Source: a virus
IMG/VR virus record: IMGVR_UViG_3300025669_000068
Location: 1-43,873 of that record
Length of the DNA: 43,873 nucleotides
Reading direction: 5' to 3' (one strand)
Under the pieces are notes generated by a model. The model ran no database searches and was not told where the DNA came from. It was given only the letters and a program-made list of their open reading frames with translations. The position numbers and the translations under genes are program-made. Of this stretch, positions 6,110-43,873 are shown one piece after another (positions within the stretch are counted from its first letter, which is position 1; each line of letters begins with the position of its first letter).

Positions 6110-7354
6110 TTATCTCCTTTTAATATCTAAATGACTAAAACCATAGATAACACCATTAACTTTCATTTGATCAATATATACTTTTTCATATGTACTCATT
6201 TTAAATTCCAATTTAAATTCTCTACAAAAACATTTTAAATATGCAATTCCTTGAGGAGTAAATGTTGCCCATGGAGAATATGCAAAAGTAGTTCGCATAT
6301 CCATACGATACGCTATTCTTACTTCCATATCCTTACTACCTTCAGTACTTATTTCAATGTTAAATATATCTTTTTCTTTTCTAGTCCCAAGATCATAAAT
6401 ACCTGTAGTAAAACCAATTGTAGGTAATACAATAGCTGCTGGAGAAACAACATACTTTGTACTTCCAGAATAATTAATTCCAGTAATATTACTTGGACCT
6501 GATGAAAGACTCTTATCTTTATATGAATAAACATATCCAGTAGTTCCATCACAAATATATAATAAACTATTATGTTCATCAAGACTAAGAATTACTGTCC
6601 CAAGAGATTTTAAATATTCTTTATAACCAAGATCAATAACATTACCATTAGTAATTTCCCATAAAGACCCATTTAAATCTACACACCATTGCATACCATC
6701 AATATCTGTTTTCATAGTTCCAATCTGTGCATGCTTATTCTGGCTACCAATAGAAATTATCCTTTCTGGTTTCCAAGTATTTTCTATTGGAATAACTTTA
6801 ATAATCCCTTTACTACCATATACAATAATAGATTTATCAAGTTTTATTAAATCATATATTGTACCAATATGATACAAAGGTCTTTCTCCTGCAATATTAT
6901 CATGACCTTGATCAAAAGATAAAGAACCAATATTTGACCATTTCAACCATGAATTTTTTTCAGGAGCAATGTGAACTCCATCAGTTGATATAGTCATTTC
7001 CATAGCTATAGTTGTAGCAGTAATAATTATACCAACTGTTTTTTCTCCAGAAAGACTTAGATTAAAAGATAAATTTGCATTAATCCAATTATCAGCACTT
7101 TCTCCAGAAACTTCCATATCAAATTGAAGCCTACCTTGAAAAGGATCTCCAATTCTATCATAACCATTACAATTAAAATAAGTATTTAATAAAGGATTTA
7201 AAGGTAAAGGACTATCTGAATGAAAACCTGCAACTATATTTGTTTCAAAAATTATATGATTAGCTGATATAGTAATATGTCTAATAATATCAGACCAACC
7301 TTGAATAGCAAAACCAAATTCTATTGCTCCTGCATCTATATCTGTATCAGCCAT
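6110..7354 (-). CDS. Tail-associated structural protein, 414 aa (possible C-terminal half of a split gene)
   Basis: Residues 1 to about 135 are beta-rich. From WSNIGSLSFD onward the sequence reads like the C-terminal two thirds of a podoviral tail protein: GTIYDLIKLDKSIIVYG, GMQWCVDLNGSLWEI and YICDGTTGYVYSY give repeated beta-blade-like elements, with a basic end. The protein at 9073-9564 ends in NYNGQVIIGGL, the type of sequence I would expect just before such a region. Two genes, including an RCC1 propeller, lie between. A structural role is supported by position; the split-gene idea is inference. Confidence 0.6.
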   Translation of the reverse strand: MADTDIDAGAIEFGFAIQGWSDIIRHITISANHIIFETNIVAGFHSDSPLPLNPLLNTYFNCNGYDRIGDPFQGRLQFDMEVSGESADNWINANLSFNLSLSGEKTVGIIITATTIAMEMTISTDGVHIAPEKNSWLKWSNIGSLSFDQGHDNIAGERPLYHIGTIYDLIKLDKSIIVYGSKGIIKVIPIENTWKPERIISIGSQNKHAQIGTMKTDIDGMQWCVDLNGSLWEITNGNVIDLGYKEYLKSLGTVILSLDEHNSLLYICDGTTGYVYSYKDKSLSSGPSNITGINYSGSTKYVVSPAAIVLPTIGFTTGIYDLGTRKEKDIFNIEISTEGSKDMEVRIAYRMDMRTTFAYSPWATFTPQGIAYLKCFCREFKLEFKMSTYEKVYIDQMKVNGVIYGFSHLDIKRR

Positions 7355-32109: not shown

Positions 32110-32425
32110 TCAGGATAAATTATTCATAGCAATTTTAAATAAAATAACTAATATAGATTATAATTTATTAAAGAAAATAAAAGGAATAAAATAACATTCT
32201 GCCCGTAACTCCAGCGCTGTTACCTCTCCAGCGTGCATAACAATTAAAATTAATTTTAATAGCTAAAGACTCTCGATATTGAAGCGGGTTTTACAGAAAG
32301 TGGTTTTATTATTTTGTCTACTTTCGCATGTTTTTCATTAGATATATTACGCAAGAGTTCAGAGAGGTTTTTTTAATGATAAAAGAGAAGACAAAAATTT
32401 GATAAAAAGGAGGAAAGATTATACC
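32110..32425 (+). other. Gene-free stretch
   Basis: 316 bases without a convincing gene. A GC-rich patch (32201-32240), an 18-bp AT palindrome (32243-32260) and a run of T (32368-32374) lie here. The only frame with an ATG is 8 codons. The likely content is RNA structure, described separately. Confidence 0.6.
32204..32374 (+). ncRNA. Possible structured non-coding RNA
   Basis: GTAAC (32205-32209) pairs with GTTAC (32219-32223), or ACCTCTC (32222-32228) pairs with GAGAGGT (32362-32368) to close a domain of about 130 bases. Inside are the palindrome ATTAAAATTAATTTTAAT (32243-32260) and AAAGT/ACTTT next to GCG/CGC (32284-32327). The outer stem is followed directly by TTTTTTT, as in an intrinsic terminator. 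No promoter was identified upstream, so this may be a processed part of the operon mRNA. Confidence 0.4.
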
Positions 32426-32638: not shown

Positions 32639-32658
32639 TTTTATAACTATGTATCGAT

Positions 32659-32696
32659 TTATTAGCTTAGACAGGCTACGCCAGCGTCGCTAATAA
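32659..32696 (+). other. Stem-loop before leader copy A
   Basis: TTATTAGC (32659-32666) pairs with GCTAATAA (32689-32696), with an inner GGC/GCC stem. It ends where the first conserved leader begins and may act with it as one RNA structure. Confidence 0.5.
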
Positions 32697-32732
32697 AATA
32701 TTGCAACGGACAAGCCGGTGATCAACACATTA
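32692..32732 (+). repeat. Conserved leader element, copy A
   Basis: About 41 bases shared with copies at 33204 and 33909. Its hairpin is CAACGG (32704-32709), loop ACAAG, CCGGTG (32715-32720), with one A-G mismatch. It ends 9 bases before the ATG of the Cys-rich gene, followed by GGAGG. Confidence 0.75.
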
Positions 32733-32741
32733 GGAGGACAA

Positions 32742-32990
32742 ATGAAAAATTGGAACATAGTAACTTCGTCAATTTTTTGCCCTGACAAGTTAGCAAATAA
32801 AAAACAGTGCGCACATAAAAACCGGTATGGCAATGGGGAGTGTGCGGAGGCTAATTGCCCTATCAAACAGCCTCCTAATCAAGTTGTTGAAGCTGGACAG
32901 GCTTCATTTTGTGGCAATTGGGGAAAATGTGAGTTTCCCGGATACCGTAAATGCAATAAAGATTGTAGCAACTATACGCCAGCCATTTAA
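32742..32990 (+). CDS. Cys-rich protein, 82 aa
   Basis: ATG 32742 follows AGGAGG. Eight cysteines are spread over the chain (FCPDKLANKKQCAHK; GECAEANCPIK; FCGNWGKCEF; KCNKDCSN), enough for two zinc sites or disulfides. There is no signal peptide, so zinc binding is more likely. Codon use is more GC-rich than surrounding genes, and it stands in a small cassette with repeated leaders. Function unknown. Confidence 0.68.
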   Translation: MKNWNIVTSSIFCPDKLANKKQCAHKNRYGNGECAEANCPIKQPPNQVVEAGQASFCGNWGKCEFPGYRKCNKDCSNYTPAI

Positions 32991-33025
32991 CACAAAATAT
33001 TATTTGCATAGGAGACATAGCTAAA

Positions 33026-33205
33026 ATGAGATATTTTTATTTATCAAATAAGGAGGTGACAGAAACCGATGGATCTGAAGCTTGGGCAATAGTTGAAGAA
33101 CTTACAGATGGTAGTATACATCTCTATCAAATCGGATTTACAAATAAAACCGAAGCTATTGAAACTATAAAAAGAGTTATAGCGAATCGTGGTGAAAGCG
33201 AATAA
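33026..33205 (+). CDS. Unknown small protein, 59 aa
   Basis: MRYFYLSNKEVTETDGSEAW begins it, and the C-terminus is a helix (TNKTEAIETIKRVIANRGES). The beta-beta-alpha look resembles small phage proteins of unknown role. GGAGAC lies 10 bases before ATG. Its stop codon overlaps leader copy B. Confidence 0.6.
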   Translation: MRYFYLSNKEVTETDGSEAWAIVEELTDGSIHLYQIGFTNKTEAIETIKRVIANRGESE

Positions 33206-33244
33206 TAAAATAGTGCACCAGACAAGCTGGTGACCATTACATTA
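33204..33244 (+). repeat. Conserved leader element, copy B
   Basis: Hairpin CACCAG (33216-33221), loop ACAAG, CTGGTG (33227-33232), all six pairs intact. Compared with copy C an A-T pair replaces G-C at the loop-side position of the stem: a compensatory change. It is followed by TTGGAGG and the next ATG at 33259. Confidence 0.78.
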
Positions 33245-33258
33245 CTTGGAGGTCTATT

Positions 33259-33570
33259 ATGAGTTGTTGGAACAAGCAAGAGCTTGAAAATATGCTTGAA
33301 GACGTAGTTAATGAGCTTGATTTATCCGAAACAGCAATTGAAGAACATAGCCCAAATGGAACGCCACCGGCAGAACTTGTGAGGCTTGTACTTGCTGAAA
33401 AGGATAGAAAGATATCCCTTTTGCAAAATGGGTTTGTAGAAGTTAAAGCGAAAAATAATAAAAAGTTAGAGATGGATGCTACCGAATGCAGAAAACACGG
33501 GATTTGTGATATACCAGAGCATTTATGCAATAATAGGCGTGAACATCTTAATCCGCACCACTCAACTTGA
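33259..33570 (+). CDS. Unknown helical protein with C-terminal Cys/His group, 103 aa
   Basis: It starts MSCWNKQELENMLEDVVNEL. A long acidic helix, a Pro/Gly turn (HSPNGTPPAELVRLVLAEK), a second helix and a C-terminal ATECRKHGICDIPEHLCNNR with three cysteines and two histidines suggest a small zinc-binding end. It is the first gene after leader copy B. Confidence 0.65.
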   Translation: MSCWNKQELENMLEDVVNELDLSETAIEEHSPNGTPPAELVRLVLAEKDRKISLLQNGFVEVKAKNNKKLEMDATECRKHGICDIPEHLCNNRREHLNPHHST

Positions 33571-33595
33571 ACATTATACCAGAAAGGAAAAAACT

Positions 33596-33910
33596 ATGAG
33601 CCATGCGAATGGGCAAGTAAAATTTAAAGATGGGACAGTGTTTCATTATGAATACAACGGTACATCTGATGTAGTTATTAACTGTTTGTATGAAAAATAT
33701 GAGGACATGTCAGATAATTGGAGGAAACAACCACGTAAAACTTGTGAGTGTGGGAATGATGAGCCTGTTGAAATAGCTACAGATTATGGATATGGCTTTT
33801 ACTGGAAAGGGAAAGCCTGTAAAAAATGCAAGGCGATAACTGAGGGGTATGGCTCCGGCATGGGTGATAATAGCGAGGAAAGTGATAAATTACCTGAATG
33901 GTGGGTATAA
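33596..33910 (+). CDS. Zinc-ribbon-like protein, 104 aa
   Basis: ATG 33596 has AGAAAGG before it; the longer open frame has no ribosome site. The protein has VKFKDGTVFHYEYNGTSDV, then CECGNDEP and, about 25 residues later, CKKCKA, a treble-clef or ribbon-like pair. The end is Gly/Trp-rich. It precedes leader copy C and has the cassette-type composition. Role unknown. Confidence 0.65.
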   Translation: MSHANGQVKFKDGTVFHYEYNGTSDVVINCLYEKYEDMSDNWRKQPRKTCECGNDEPVEIATDYGYGFYWKGKACKKCKAITEGYGSGMGDNSEESDKLPEWWV

Positions 33911-33949
33911 TAAAATAGTACACCGGGCAAGCCGGTGACCATTACATTA
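33909..33949 (+). repeat. Conserved leader element, copy C
   Basis: Hairpin CACCGG (33921-33926), loop GCAAG, CCGGTG (33932-33937). The flanks match copy B almost base for base. Here no strong gene starts directly after; the next well-supported ATG is at 34079, so a gene may have been lost from this slot. Confidence 0.75.
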
Positions 33950-34078
33950 ACACTTATGAGCATGACACGCTTCATTAATCAAACAATGCTACGGATATCA
34001 TTGACGCTCACGCTGATTAGCATATTAGCTCTGAATAAACCTAAATTAATCATAAAACATATTAAGGAGAATAAAATT

Positions 34079-36541: not shown

Positions 36542-37969
36542 ATGAAAAATAAAATATTTACACTAATCAGTATCAATCCAAATGATATTATAATAAAAGA
36601 AAGGGCAAGAAAAGACCTCGGAGATTTAACAGAACTAAAAGATTCAATAACAAAATCAGGTCTTTTAAATCCAATTCTTATAACACAAGATAATGTATTA
36701 ATTGCAGGTGAAAGAAGACTAACAGCTATAAAAGAATTAGAACTCCCACTTATTGATGCCCGTATATCTCCATCAATTAATTCCGATGATGCTATGATAA
36801 TGGAAATGATGGAGAATGTAGCTAGGAAAGATTTCACCTGGGCAGAAGAGATAACATTAAAACTTAACCTTCATAAGTACTGGGTAGCAGAGGCAACAAA
36901 AGAAAATAAAATTCATGGTTATCGTGCTACAGCTGAAAAACTTTCCTGCTCCATCGGAACATTATCTACTGATCTCGTTCTTGCTAAACATCTCCCAACA
37001 TTTCCAGACCTCATTACTTGTGAAACTAAAATCAAAGCAAAGAATACACTCAAGAAAATGGGAGAACAAGCAGAGGCAATCAACTCCGCTAATGACTTAT
37101 CCCCTGAAGAGAAAGCAAACTTAGCCTCTATGATGCAGGGGAATTTCAAAGCTACAAAAACATCCAAAGGAAAAGTAGAATTAAATATTCCTAAAGCACA
37201 GCATGAAGATACAATTCCAGATTGCTCAGCTTTAAATGACCGTTCAAAGATTGAACACCAAGAAAGTAATGAAAAAACTAAGCTGAAGAAAGAAGTAGCT
37301 TATAGTATAGAAACATATGATACATTCATAAACAAGATTCCAAACAATTCAGTTGGTCTCATTGAACTCGACCCTCCATATGCAATTGATTTCAATACAA
37401 ACTATGGGCAAGTATCAAATATAAAAGCTAAGGCAAATGATTGGACAGTGGAACAATTATATTCCTTCTACAAAACTATGTTGCCAGTCCTATTTGATAA
37501 ACTCCTTGATTCAAGTTGGATCATATGTTGGACAGGAAAAGAACATTGGTTAGAGACAAATAAAATTGCAGAAGAATCAGGATTTAAGATTCAACCTCCT
37601 GGAATATGGGCAAAGTCAGGAGGAAGTACTAACACTCCTAAAACAAATATGATATCAAACTATGAAATGTTTTTATTATTTCGAAAAGGAAAAGCGACAT
37701 TCAATACCCCTTCTTTTCCAGCAGTAATAAATTTCAATCCTCCATCATCTTCTCAACGAATCCATCAATGGGAAAAACCACTTGATATGTATAAATATAT
37801 AATCTCTGCCCTTGGTAGGCAAGGTTCATTATTCCTATCTCCTTTTGCAGGATCTGGTAATTCTCTCATAGCAGCTACGCATGAAAACATGATAGCTATG
37901 GGTTGTGATGAAAGTCAGAAATATATTTATGGTTTTATGGATAGATTTAATGGGATATTTAATTCATAG
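36542..37969 (+). CDS. ParB-like domain fused to DNA methyltransferase, 475 aa
   Basis: Residues 9-110 form a ParB/Srx-type domain (SGLLNPILIT, IAGERRLTAIKELE, MEMMENVARKDFTW). Residues 120-150 look like a KorB-type helix-turn-helix (GYRATAEKLSCSIGTLSTD). After a charged linker (200-255) comes an N4-cytosine/N6-adenine methyltransferase with the catalytic DPPY at 277-280 and the AdoMet motif FAGSG at 435-439, i.e. the catalytic motif first (beta-type order). ParB-methyltransferase fusions are known in phages and mobile elements. The target sequence cannot be read here. A dispersed palindrome lies in the linker-coding part. Confidence 0.88.
   Translation: MKNKIFTLISINPNDIIIKERARKDLGDLTELKDSITKSGLLNPILITQDNVLIAGERRLTAIKELELPLIDARISPSINSDDAMIMEMMENVARKDFTWAEEITLKLNLHKYWVAEATKENKIHGYRATAEKLSCSIGTLSTDLVLAKHLPTFPDLITCETKIKAKNTLKKMGEQAEAINSANDLSPEEKANLASMMQGNFKATKTSKGKVELNIPKAQHEDTIPDCSALNDRSKIEHQESNEKTKLKKEVAYSIETYDTFINKIPNNSVGLIELDPPYAIDFNTNYGQVSNIKAKANDWTVEQLYSFYKTMLPVLFDKLLDSSWIICWTGKEHWLETNKIAEESGFKIQPPGIWAKSGGSTNTPKTNMISNYEMFLLFRKGKATFNTPSFPAVINFNPPSSSQRIHQWEKPLDMYKYIISALGRQGSLFLSPFAGSGNSLIAATHENMIAMGCDESQKYIYGFMDRFNGIFNS
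37242..37256. promoter_or_regulatory. Dispersed palindrome site 8
   Basis: GTTCAAAGATTGAAC with GACC to the left and ACCAAG to the right. It lies within the ParB-methyltransferase gene, in the codons for the linker between its two domains. Confidence 0.65.
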
Positions 37970-38179: not shown

Positions 38180-38293
38180 ATGGCACAATTAACACCAGAG
38201 GAAATGAAAAAGCTCCTTGATAATGTTACTAAAGAAGATTTAAAACTTCTTAAATTTATTAAGGAGACTAAATATTATCTTAAAAGTAATTGA
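38180..38293 (+). CDS. Small charged protein, 37 aa
   Basis: MAQLTPEEMKKLLDNVTKED begins it; AAAGGAG precedes ATG by 5 bases. It is a Lys/Leu-rich helix pair without cysteines. It stands alone between two non-coding stretches, before a dispersed palindrome. Confidence 0.55.
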   Translation: MAQLTPEEMKKLLDNVTKEDLKLLKFIKETKYYLKSN

Positions 38294-38644: not shown

Positions 38645-41167
38645 ATGGCAATTCTAATTCCAAAAAACATTACTATAAAGAAAACATTTGATCCTTTGAA
38701 AACAGACTGTCCACCAACAACTAATATAGCTACAGCAAATTATATTATGGTAGGTAATTTTCCCAATACGATAGAAGTAATGGAGAAAGAACCATTCGTT
38801 GGTCCAGCAGGGAATCAATTGAAAAGAATATGTTCTGTTTGTCAACTTCCTATGTACCAGATTTACCTTACTCTCAGTTGTAAGTCATTATTACCAAGTA
38901 ATAATAGAAATAAACTCTGGACAGAAAAAGGATTCCGACATCCTAGTTGGGGCTTATTACAGAAACAATTAATTGATGAACTATCAAATTGTAAAGCTAA
39001 GACAATCATCTTACTCGGTGATACTGTTATGCATTTACTTCTTGATGAACCTAAATTTAATTCAATAACAAAATATAGAGGAAGTATATATAAAGCTGAA
39101 GAATTTCCTCATCTTACTGACCCATTAGCAGGTAAGATAATCTGCTTATCATACCACCCAGCATTCACTCAAGCAATGAAAAGTCCTGTCTCATTCTATA
39201 CAATGATTTTTGATATAAGTAAATTTATTAAAGTAAATAATTCTCCCGAGCTTCTTGATATCCAACCAGTTCTACATATTAAACCACTCTTTGATGAAGT
39301 TTTATCTTTCTTTAACAAATGTATGGATAAACCTTATGTAGGTTTTGATATTGAATGTACTCCAAAATACATCACATGCTTCTCTTTAGCATATAAAAAT
39401 AAAGATGGAACTATCCATTCCATGTGTATTCCATTAATGGATAATTCAGGAAACTATTGGACAATAAACGAGGAGGTAACTATATGGACAGAATTATCAA
39501 AGCTTCTCATTTCTCCAGATGTAGGACTAATATGTCAGAACGGAATGTTCGATGTTATGTTTGTCTTACGCACCATGAACATAATTTCAGACAATTTCTT
39601 CTTCGATACCATGCTGGCACAGCATATAGTATACACAGACTTACCGAAAGGGTTAGACTTTCTTACTTCCGTATATACTTATTTCCCATATTATAAAGAC
39701 GAAGGGAAACAAAGTCATCTTAGTGTTATTAAAGATTGGACTATGTATTGGAAATATAATGCAAAAGATTCTGCATATCTTATTCCAATAATGCTTAATC
39801 TTCAAGAAGAGTTACGAGACTTTGAAGCTGAAGATGCAATGCAATATACCATGGAACTTCACAAGCCTCTTATGGAAATGGAGTTTAATGGGTTATTAAC
39901 TAACAGAGAAGGGATAGCAATTGCAAAGAAAAAGTTTGAAGAACAATTAGCCCAACTCACTATTGATCTTAAAAAACTTACAAACATAGAACTTAATACT
40001 AATTCACCTCCACAAATGGTAGCCTACTTCTACGGAACTTGTATGATCAAGCCATACATTAACCGTAAAACAAAACGTCCTACATGTGATAGTACAGCAT
40101 TATCTCGTATAGCTAGAAAGAATGTAAAAGGATCTAAGGAAGCGAAAATTATTATTCAAATGCGTACGATAGGAAAATTAATAAGCACTTACTTCACCAT
40201 TAATGTTGATTCAGATAATAAACTTAGATGTTCTCATAAGATTGCAGGGACAGTCTCTGGTCGTATTGCTACTGAAAAAACTTTTTTCGGAACTGGAGCA
40301 AATTTACAAAACCAACCTTATGAATACAAGAAATATCTTATCCCTGATCCTGAACATATCTTATGTGAAATTGATTTAGCTAAAGCTGAGGCTCATGTAG
40401 TAGCTTACCTCACCCAAGATGCTAATATGATTGAAGCCTTTACATCAGGTATAGATGTCCATGCGTTTAATGCGAGTAAAATATTCAGCAAAACTATTGA
40501 AGAAGTAATAGATGAACATCATGCTAATAAGGAAGATCAAAAAAGTACAATGCGTTATATGGGAAAGAAGGTTGTCCATGCAAGTAATTATAATATGGGA
40601 CCACAGACTTTCTCTGACCAACTTGCTAAAGAAAACATATTCAAAGGACAAGCAGAATGTAAGAGGTTACTTCTTAATTACACTTCTCGCTTTCCTGGTT
40701 TACATCGTTGGCATAAATTAATAGAAGAAGAAGTTCAAAATTCCCGAGTACTTTATAATTTATACGGTAGACCTAAAAGATTTTTAGGTCTTATGAATGC
40801 TGCATTATATCGCAACGCATATAGTTTTAAGCCACAAAGTACAGTTGCTGAACTCTTAAATAAAGGGTCAATTAAAATATGTAATGACAAACGATTAGAT
40901 CGACATCACCATGATATTGATTTAAATACAACTGTACATGATAGTGATGTGTTTCAATTTAAAATATCTAAATCTCCTGACCTTCTTGATATCTTACTAA
41001 TCATGCAAGACCATATGAATCATACGTTCACTCATAAAGGAAAGAGTTTTAACATTGGGCTCGATGCAAAGATAGGATTACAATGGGCGGGAGTTAAGAC
41101 AGCAGAGATTAGTACATTTGATAAACAAAGTGTTGAAGAAGCTTTACATAAAATAGGAGTGAAATAA
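38645..41167 (+). CDS. Family A DNA polymerase fused to a uracil-DNA-glycosylase-like domain, 840 aa
   Basis: Residues 30-190 resemble family 4 uracil-DNA glycosylase (PFVGPAGNQL at 50-59, YHPAF at 170-174). The first motif is GNFPN instead of the usual GExPG, so glycosylase activity is doubtful. Residues 230-380 are a 3'-5' exonuclease: DIE at 235-237, QNGMFDVMF at 298-306, YNAKDSAYL at 371-379. The polymerase part has SGRIATE (538-544), motif A with Asp577 (EIDLAKAEAH), motif B around KKVVHASNYNMG (641-652) and motif C VHDSDVF with Asp766. Such fusions are known in SPO1-like phages. This is the main replicase. Confidence 0.93.
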   Translation: MAILIPKNITIKKTFDPLKTDCPPTTNIATANYIMVGNFPNTIEVMEKEPFVGPAGNQLKRICSVCQLPMYQIYLTLSCKSLLPSNNRNKLWTEKGFRHPSWGLLQKQLIDELSNCKAKTIILLGDTVMHLLLDEPKFNSITKYRGSIYKAEEFPHLTDPLAGKIICLSYHPAFTQAMKSPVSFYTMIFDISKFIKVNNSPELLDIQPVLHIKPLFDEVLSFFNKCMDKPYVGFDIECTPKYITCFSLAYKNKDGTIHSMCIPLMDNSGNYWTINEEVTIWTELSKLLISPDVGLICQNGMFDVMFVLRTMNIISDNFFFDTMLAQHIVYTDLPKGLDFLTSVYTYFPYYKDEGKQSHLSVIKDWTMYWKYNAKDSAYLIPIMLNLQEELRDFEAEDAMQYTMELHKPLMEMEFNGLLTNREGIAIAKKKFEEQLAQLTIDLKKLTNIELNTNSPPQMVAYFYGTCMIKPYINRKTKRPTCDSTALSRIARKNVKGSKEAKIIIQMRTIGKLISTYFTINVDSDNKLRCSHKIAGTVSGRIATEKTFFGTGANLQNQPYEYKKYLIPDPEHILCEIDLAKAEAHVVAYLTQDANMIEAFTSGIDVHAFNASKIFSKTIEEVIDEHHANKEDQKSTMRYMGKKVVHASNYNMGPQTFSDQLAKENIFKGQAECKRLLLNYTSRFPGLHRWHKLIEEEVQNSRVLYNLYGRPKRFLGLMNAALYRNAYSFKPQSTVAELLNKGSIKICNDKRLDRHHHDIDLNTTVHDSDVFQFKISKSPDLLDILLIMQDHMNHTFTHKGKSFNIGLDAKIGLQWAGVKTAEISTFDKQSVEEALHKIGVK

Positions 41168-43315: not shown

Positions 43316-43873
43316 CTACCTACTTAATGGGCGTCTTCTACTACTTTTTCTTTCTCTACGAGATCGACTCTCTCCTCTTCCAACGTTACTACTTCCTCCA
43401 CTATTATTTTCTGGCAAATGTCCAATCAAAGCTCTTGGAGTACTCTCTCCTCTATGCCTAGTCCCTCTTACATATTTAGTTATTTGTGAAGTTCCTGTAA
43501 TTCCAAGTCCTTTTCCTACTAAAGAAGCAATTGCAATGATAGCTTTCTCATCTCCTGCAAAAGCATCAGGAAGTAAATCTTGTTTAATATAATCATTTCC
43601 TGCAATAGCTTTTGCTATATCTCCATAGTACTGCATCAGTGGACCAAGTGGATGTGATCCAAATTTCAAGCTTCCAGTAAGTGGAACACCTTCACTAATT
43701 TCTAATAAGACATCTTTAAATAAAGCAATACTTGACTTATCTCCTTGATCTATTCCTCTAAACAAAGACTTAACTGGTGCAGGAAAAGGAGATTGAATTC
43801 CAATAATATCTTCCGCAAGAGTATTAACTGCTGCAACAGCAATTCCATATCTAAGTAGTTTTGCTTTATTATT
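43316..43873 (-). CDS. Large internal virion / ejection-type protein, C-terminal part
   Basis: This is the in-frame continuation of the gene that leaves the window at base 1. The first 116 bases repeat bases 1-116. The encoded 185 residues include a Leu/Ala-rich helical part, a segment ending GTSQITKYVRGTRHRGE and a Gly/Ser then Arg-rich tail (RSRRERKSSRRRPLSR). The basic tail could contact DNA; that is inference. An apparent shorter start at TTG 43765 is not real, because the frame is open further upstream through the join. The gene ends in TAG seven bases from a strong hairpin terminator. Confidence 0.85.
   Translation of the reverse strand, partial: NNKAKLLRYGIAVAAVNTLAEDIIGIQSPFPAPVKSLFRGIDQGDKSSIALFKDVLLEISEGVPLTGSLKFGSHPLGPLMQYYGDIAKAIAGNDYIKQDLLPDAFAGDEKAIIAIASLVGKGLGITGTSQITKYVRGTRHRGESTPRALIGHLPENNSGGSSNVGRGESRSRRERKSSRRRPLSR
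43758..43873. repeat. Right copy of terminal overlap
   Basis: Direct repeat of bases 1-116, 114 of 116 identical. Joining base 43757 to base 1 gives a unique length of about 43,757 bp and restores one uninterrupted 1301-codon gene on the minus strand. Confidence 0.93.

Follow-up and report, generated by a model that had tools for sequence, protein, structure and literature searches.

Structure of the window array and its repeated sites

The window, which is the whole 43,873 nt stretch of viral DNA analysed here (IMG/VR record IMGVR_UViG_3300025669_000068, positions 1 to 43,873), carries an array of small units on its plus strand. In order, these are a candidate start junction, a geneless unit with site A, an 82 aa gene with a degenerate site, a 59 aa gene followed by site B, a pair of genes followed by site C, the weak site D and a decayed unit (Table 1).

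Table 1. Features of the window array; R1 is a covariance model built without sites from the window
Feature	Position	Strand	Basis
Candidate array-start (attI-like) junction, AACTATGTATCGATTTATTAGC	32645..32666	+	Likeness to the array start of G003
Geneless mini-cassette (TTAGCTTAGACAGGC...GCTAAT + site A)	32662..32728	+	Shared units in L014/L015, L050 and L052
attC-like site A	32688..32732	+	R1, E=7.2e-9; folds with cognate R'
Cassette gene, 82 aa, Cys-rich	32742..32990	+	57 bp at 96.5 % identity with a cassette of L052
Degenerate site, CGCCAGCCATTTAACACAAAATATTA	32978..33002	+	Same sequence type closes cassettes in L052 (2950s) and L050 (3650s)
Cassette gene, 59 aa	33026..33205	+	ORF; stop at the start of site B
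attC-like site B	33200..33244	+	R1, E=1.5e-5; pair counts
Cassette gene, 103 aa	33259..33570	+	ORF
Cassette gene, 104 aa, four Cys in zinc-ribbon-like pairs	33596..33910	+	73 % identity to an ORF of L033
attC-like site C	33905..33949	+	R1, E=2.5e-4
Weak attC-like site D, ending ATTAGC	33973..34027	+	R1, E=0.28; missed by the initial annotation
Decayed geneless mini-cassette, ATTAGCTCTGAATAAACC...	34024..34051	+	Similar to three ATTAGCTCTGGATAAACC units in the array of G003

The start junction was delimited by comparison with G003, a phage genome colinear with the window, in which an array at a different place begins with nearly the same 22 nt, AACTATGTATCTACTTATTAGC (38239–38260); the arrays of L050 and L052 start with CTACATAACTACTTAT. 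On this likeness, 32645..32666 is a candidate attI-like array start. The geneless unit that follows is shared with L014/L015, L050 and L052 at 95–98 % identity over 32661–32721, with identity beginning exactly at ATTAGC and differing sequence upstream. No Pfam or PHROG match was obtained for the 82 aa gene, whose cassette and its counterpart in L052 both start with ATTAGGAGGAC after different sites. The relative of the 104 aa gene in the related phage L033 (6754–7065) has its stop codon elsewhere and no site after it.

Copies A, B and C had been described in the initial annotation as a repeated element with a covarying hairpin; they were located at 32690–32732, 33202–33244 and 33907–33949 on the plus strand, and a degenerate pattern for them matched nowhere else in the window (chance expectation 0), placing the repeats far above chance. 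The stems are as described there for copy B (CACCAG/CTGGTG) and copy C (CACCGG/CCGGTG); that of copy A, which was left unmentioned, carries one mismatch (CAACGG/CCGGTG). Pair counts over six sites, drawn from the window and from other phages, bore out the proposed A-T to G-C double change (A-T in 3/6, G-C in 3/6) and revealed a change from C-G to A-T at another pair. With only six sequences, some of them related, this covariation supports a selected structure rather than proving it. An outer pairing beyond the hairpin, of the form GCYAAT ... ATTRGC, had been overlooked; it reads GCCAAT/ATTGGC in L005 and GCTAAT/ATTAGC elsewhere. Each of the three elements closes the unit before it, at that unit's 3' end, and copies B and C start at the stop codon of the upstream gene.

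The imperfect hairpin that characterizes attC sites, with paired R and L boxes and an unpaired spacer, was recovered from folds, pair counts and cross-detection of canonical attC. Predicted folds of this form were obtained for L52s2, L50s4, L5_3, L7d, L49b and, with its cognate R', site A. An extra base lies on the 5' arm of the longer sites (GTT[G]CA, CGCT[G]CT, GAACCT[G]CT), in which box-pair counts were weak relative to shuffles (38/500), and the short sites of the B and C type have a 2 nt bulge on the 3' arm, compared with the R''-L'' arm described for attC. The L box of site D (AATGCTACGG/CGCTGATT) resembles that of a canonical attC in the bacterial genome G187.

Related sites in other phages and in bacteria

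Scans of IMG/VR located related sites in L004–L007, L014, L015, L049, L050, L052 and L053; a hit in L051 was judged to be a chance match in coding sequence. Nine sites of other phages went into R1, which detected sites A, B and C of the window as well as new sites in L049, L015 and L004. At E<10 it gave no match in L028–L034 or L009–L013, seven phage and five bacterial loci that are without such arrays. The search beyond this genome that the initial annotation had proposed thus gave both further phage hits and covariation, and its structural claim withstood it. Other searches returned no match: Rfam, blastn against collections of phages and plasmids with the window array, an L007 site and the L052 array as queries, and a ligase-based search of IMG/VR for relatives. 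A scan of genome contigs with a pattern of the B and C type gave six stretches, judged from their coding context to be chance.

In 150 Pseudomonadota genomes, R1 produced only two matches at E≤0.01, approximately the chance number (per-genome E near 0.003, 150 x 0.003 roughly 0.5); both are bacterial and of canonical attC form, one being GCCTAAC...GTTAGGC in an array of three and the other TCTAAC...GTTATAC. Among chromosomal loci around integrase hits, the best match (E=0.0087) was GCACAAC-AAAGC-GTTGCACCC...GGGTGAAC-TCAGTC-GTTGTGC, an attC-like site approximately 0.7 kb from a TIGR02249 integron-integrase match. The phage site at L050 3106 and the attC of G187 share AATGCA..CGGACGGCGTACC..GCCG.TGATTT and differ at TAAC/GTTA versus TAAT/ATTG. 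Matches in 369 Gammaproteobacteria other than G187 (E 0.01–0.09) look like chance. No match was found in G006 at E≤0.05, and a G029 locus was matched when searched alone. On chromosomal integron regions, a home-made R''/R' scanner gave too much noise in GC-rich DNA to classify cores and was not used as evidence. The phage sites are called attC-type because the R1 matches read as canonical attC sites, one of them near an integrase gene; the bacterial scores are modest, and it is the form of the sequences that carries the assignment.

The phage sites follow the layout of bacterial integron attC sites and of CALINs, the integrase-less attC clusters, namely R''-UCS-L''-VTS-L'-UCS-R' (PMC2727003). 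They share an L box of the type GTT[G]CA/TGAAC or ATTGCA/TGAAT, a position after the gene and breakpoints in the R' triplet. They differ from bacterial attC in a triplet of ATT/AAT instead of GTT/AAC, in that no integrase was found, and for many sites in length (about 45–56 nt, versus 57–142 nt reported for attC). CALINs with methyltransferase cassettes are already known in virulent phages, where they were predicted by canonical attC models and 5/6 of those tested recombine via IntI1 at G|TTRRRY (Qi et al. 2023, PMC9892861). The arrays described here are similarly attC-like clusters without an integrase and with methyltransferase cassettes, but they have ATT and sit in different phages.

The ATT triplet and cassette exchange

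All of the junctions that were delimited by eye (31/31) read ATT, with AAT in R'', a count that overstates the evidence because the junctions were found partly through the ATT motif. ATT was absent at the expected distance in several sites (L005_2, L7a, L7c, L4_0 and L49a). The AAC ... GTT pair of integron attC sites was thus replaced in the phage sites by AAT ... ATT, whereas the canonical bacterial matches of R1 carry AAC/GTT. This pair is described as the only conserved sequence of attC (PMC2727003) and as universal in attI sites, and a C-to-A change there is reported to lower recombination (PMC4792948). The bacterial genomes covered, among them sets of 150 Pseudomonadota and 369 Gammaproteobacteria, yielded no integron with ATT sites, and junctions of the form ATTRRRY/RTTRRRY were not found in the open-licence literature. 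Judged from such papers, what appears to be new is that the triplet is consistently ATT and that it recurs in several phages unrelated to one another.

Comparison of arrays gives less biased support for ATT than the count of junctions. L004 and L005 are 99.7–100 % identical on either side of a 1,149 bp insertion in L005, placed within CATT exactly at the end of a site, with ends that overlap in CATT(A) only. The insert, which is also carried by L006, has three parts: a geneless unit and two genes, one C5-methylase-like and one Cys-containing. The difference between L004 and L005 arose by recent gain or loss of the insert at an ATT site. One HTH-like cassette occurs in both L050 and L052 with different upstream neighbours, with identity beginning at ATTAGGAGGA. 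ATTAGC is where the mini-cassettes of the window, L015, L052 and G003 start, and the ends that sites share reach as far as ATT or ATTA. Identity switches at ATT in about ten further comparisons, not all of them independent, while ATTR starts at 1.6 % of array positions. The L004/L005 insertion and the switch points are comparative evidence for exchange of cassettes with the crossover inside the R' triplet, as in attC. The initial annotation's reading of the locus as an array of exchangeable gene cassettes is well supported by this polymorphic insertion, by the cassette found beside different neighbours in two phages and by the related sites elsewhere.

Two observations in L014 and L015 lie apart from the sites. 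The two near-identical contigs (L015 reversed) differ by a deletion of ~1.4 kb upstream of a site and not at it, which may reflect a chimera, and iteron-like TTATCCGGA repeats are clustered at 6780–7020 of reversed L015.

Interpretation of the array and its genome context

Searches of ten phage contigs, most of them fragments, detected neither a tyrosine nor a serine recombinase, nor a Y1 transposase; two matches to PF00589 below the cut-off lie inside a methyltransferase ORF. A complete integron, with intI beside attI, was likewise not found on the ten contigs, the attI-like sequence being a candidate. As no recombinase was found on the phage contigs, the enzyme probably acts in trans and may come from a Desulfobacterota host.

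We consider it very probable that the elements are integron-type attC sites ending small cassettes, and that the cassettes are exchanged, at an ATT triplet, by an integron-type recombinase acting in trans. Single strands of the sites would fold into imperfect hairpins with an R''/R' helix, an unpaired spacer, an L''/L' helix with extrahelical bases and a terminal loop. Cassettes are most likely swapped by crossing over in the R' triplet, which in these phages is ATT (AAT in R'') in place of GTT/AAC, through a site-specific recombinase of integron-integrase type from a source outside the phage contigs. Sites built like those of integrons, with GTT changed to ATT, suggest that an integron-type enzyme shuffles genes among these phages. 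There is perhaps an even chance that a lineage of integron integrases, in a Desulfobacterota host or an unsampled phage, switched its triplet from GTT to ATT; if so, its cassette pool would be recombinationally apart from ordinary integrons and common to unrelated phages.

The initial annotation had instead proposed an RNA control element or binding site for a phage protein in shared mRNA leaders, in which case the repeats would recombine merely as repeats. The covarying hairpin, the genes with ribosome sites that come after copies A and B and the terminator-like minus-strand matches that overlap B and C are all compatible with a leader. This reading is nevertheless unsupported, because the element closes the upstream unit, overlaps the stop codon in B and C and has the attC layout. 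The switch points also fall in ATT, outside the hairpin, R1 finds canonical bacterial attC sites, and sites occur on geneless units as well. The ends of the L004/L005 insertion share only CATT(A), too short for homologous recombination. A leader is therefore improbable as the explanation of the array, and the elements may have an additional role in RNA.

Hairpins that adjoin a short target-like sequence, on contigs lacking a tyrosine recombinase, are also what another single-strand system would leave, with a Y1 transposase of the IS200/IS605 or REP/RAYT type acting in trans. A Y1 transposase was equally absent, with no match to PF01797 and hence none in cis on the ten contigs, and in their paired R boxes, their L boxes and the layout of the cassettes the sites resemble attC, which R1 also detects; we regard such a system as very improbable. 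Capture of ordinary cassettes long ago from a canonical GTT integron, with ATT arising by drift in sites that are now inert, would fit the integrase-less CALINs known in phages (PMC9892861) and the degenerate state of some window sites. It is unlikely given that several phage contigs, unrelated to one another, have the same change throughout in R'' as well as R', and that L004 and L005, at 99.7–100 % identity, differ by an insert recently gained or lost at an ATT site.

Under integron-type exchange at ATT, phages would trade small genes, including DNA methyltransferases, as cassettes, in arrays that would escape searches insisting on GTT, and the identity of the enzyme becomes a concrete, testable question. 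Frumerie et al. 2010 (cited in PMC5371416 and PMC4792948) reportedly changed the cleavage triplet of integron sites in the laboratory with IntI1. The arrays here are a natural set, which with ATT throughout would be evidence that the triplet is able to evolve, and would set one cassette pool apart from the others.

The window ends in an overlap of 116 bp with its own start (1–116 and 43758–43873, 98.3 % identity); the genome is thus probably complete at about 43.76 kb, either circular or circularly permuted. The colinear 45 kb genome G003, in which L007 lies, has roughly 30–76 % protein identity to it. G003 has no array at the place of the window array, an empty state read from sequence up to a break as the contig ends in that region; it carries an array elsewhere, at a place that holds none in the window. 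Among named phages the closest is a Desulfofustis phage (portal 41 %, polymerase 31 %), which hints at a Desulfobacterota host.

Elsewhere in the window, 38645–41167 encodes a single protein combining DNA polymerase A, a 3'-5' exonuclease and an N-terminal domain of the uracil-DNA-glycosylase superfamily, and 36542–37969 encodes an N6/N4 DNA methylase fused to a ParB N-terminal domain. On inspection by eye, a terminase-like ORF of L052 (5180–7408) appears to hold an intein-like insertion that runs from CFALGTPVLMYNGK to TVTHNS. A noncoding stretch, CTGCCCGTAA...GCGGG, is conserved between the window (32172–32380) and G003 (44948–44996 and 1–110, the contig ending inside it), and is possibly a structured RNA or packaging site.
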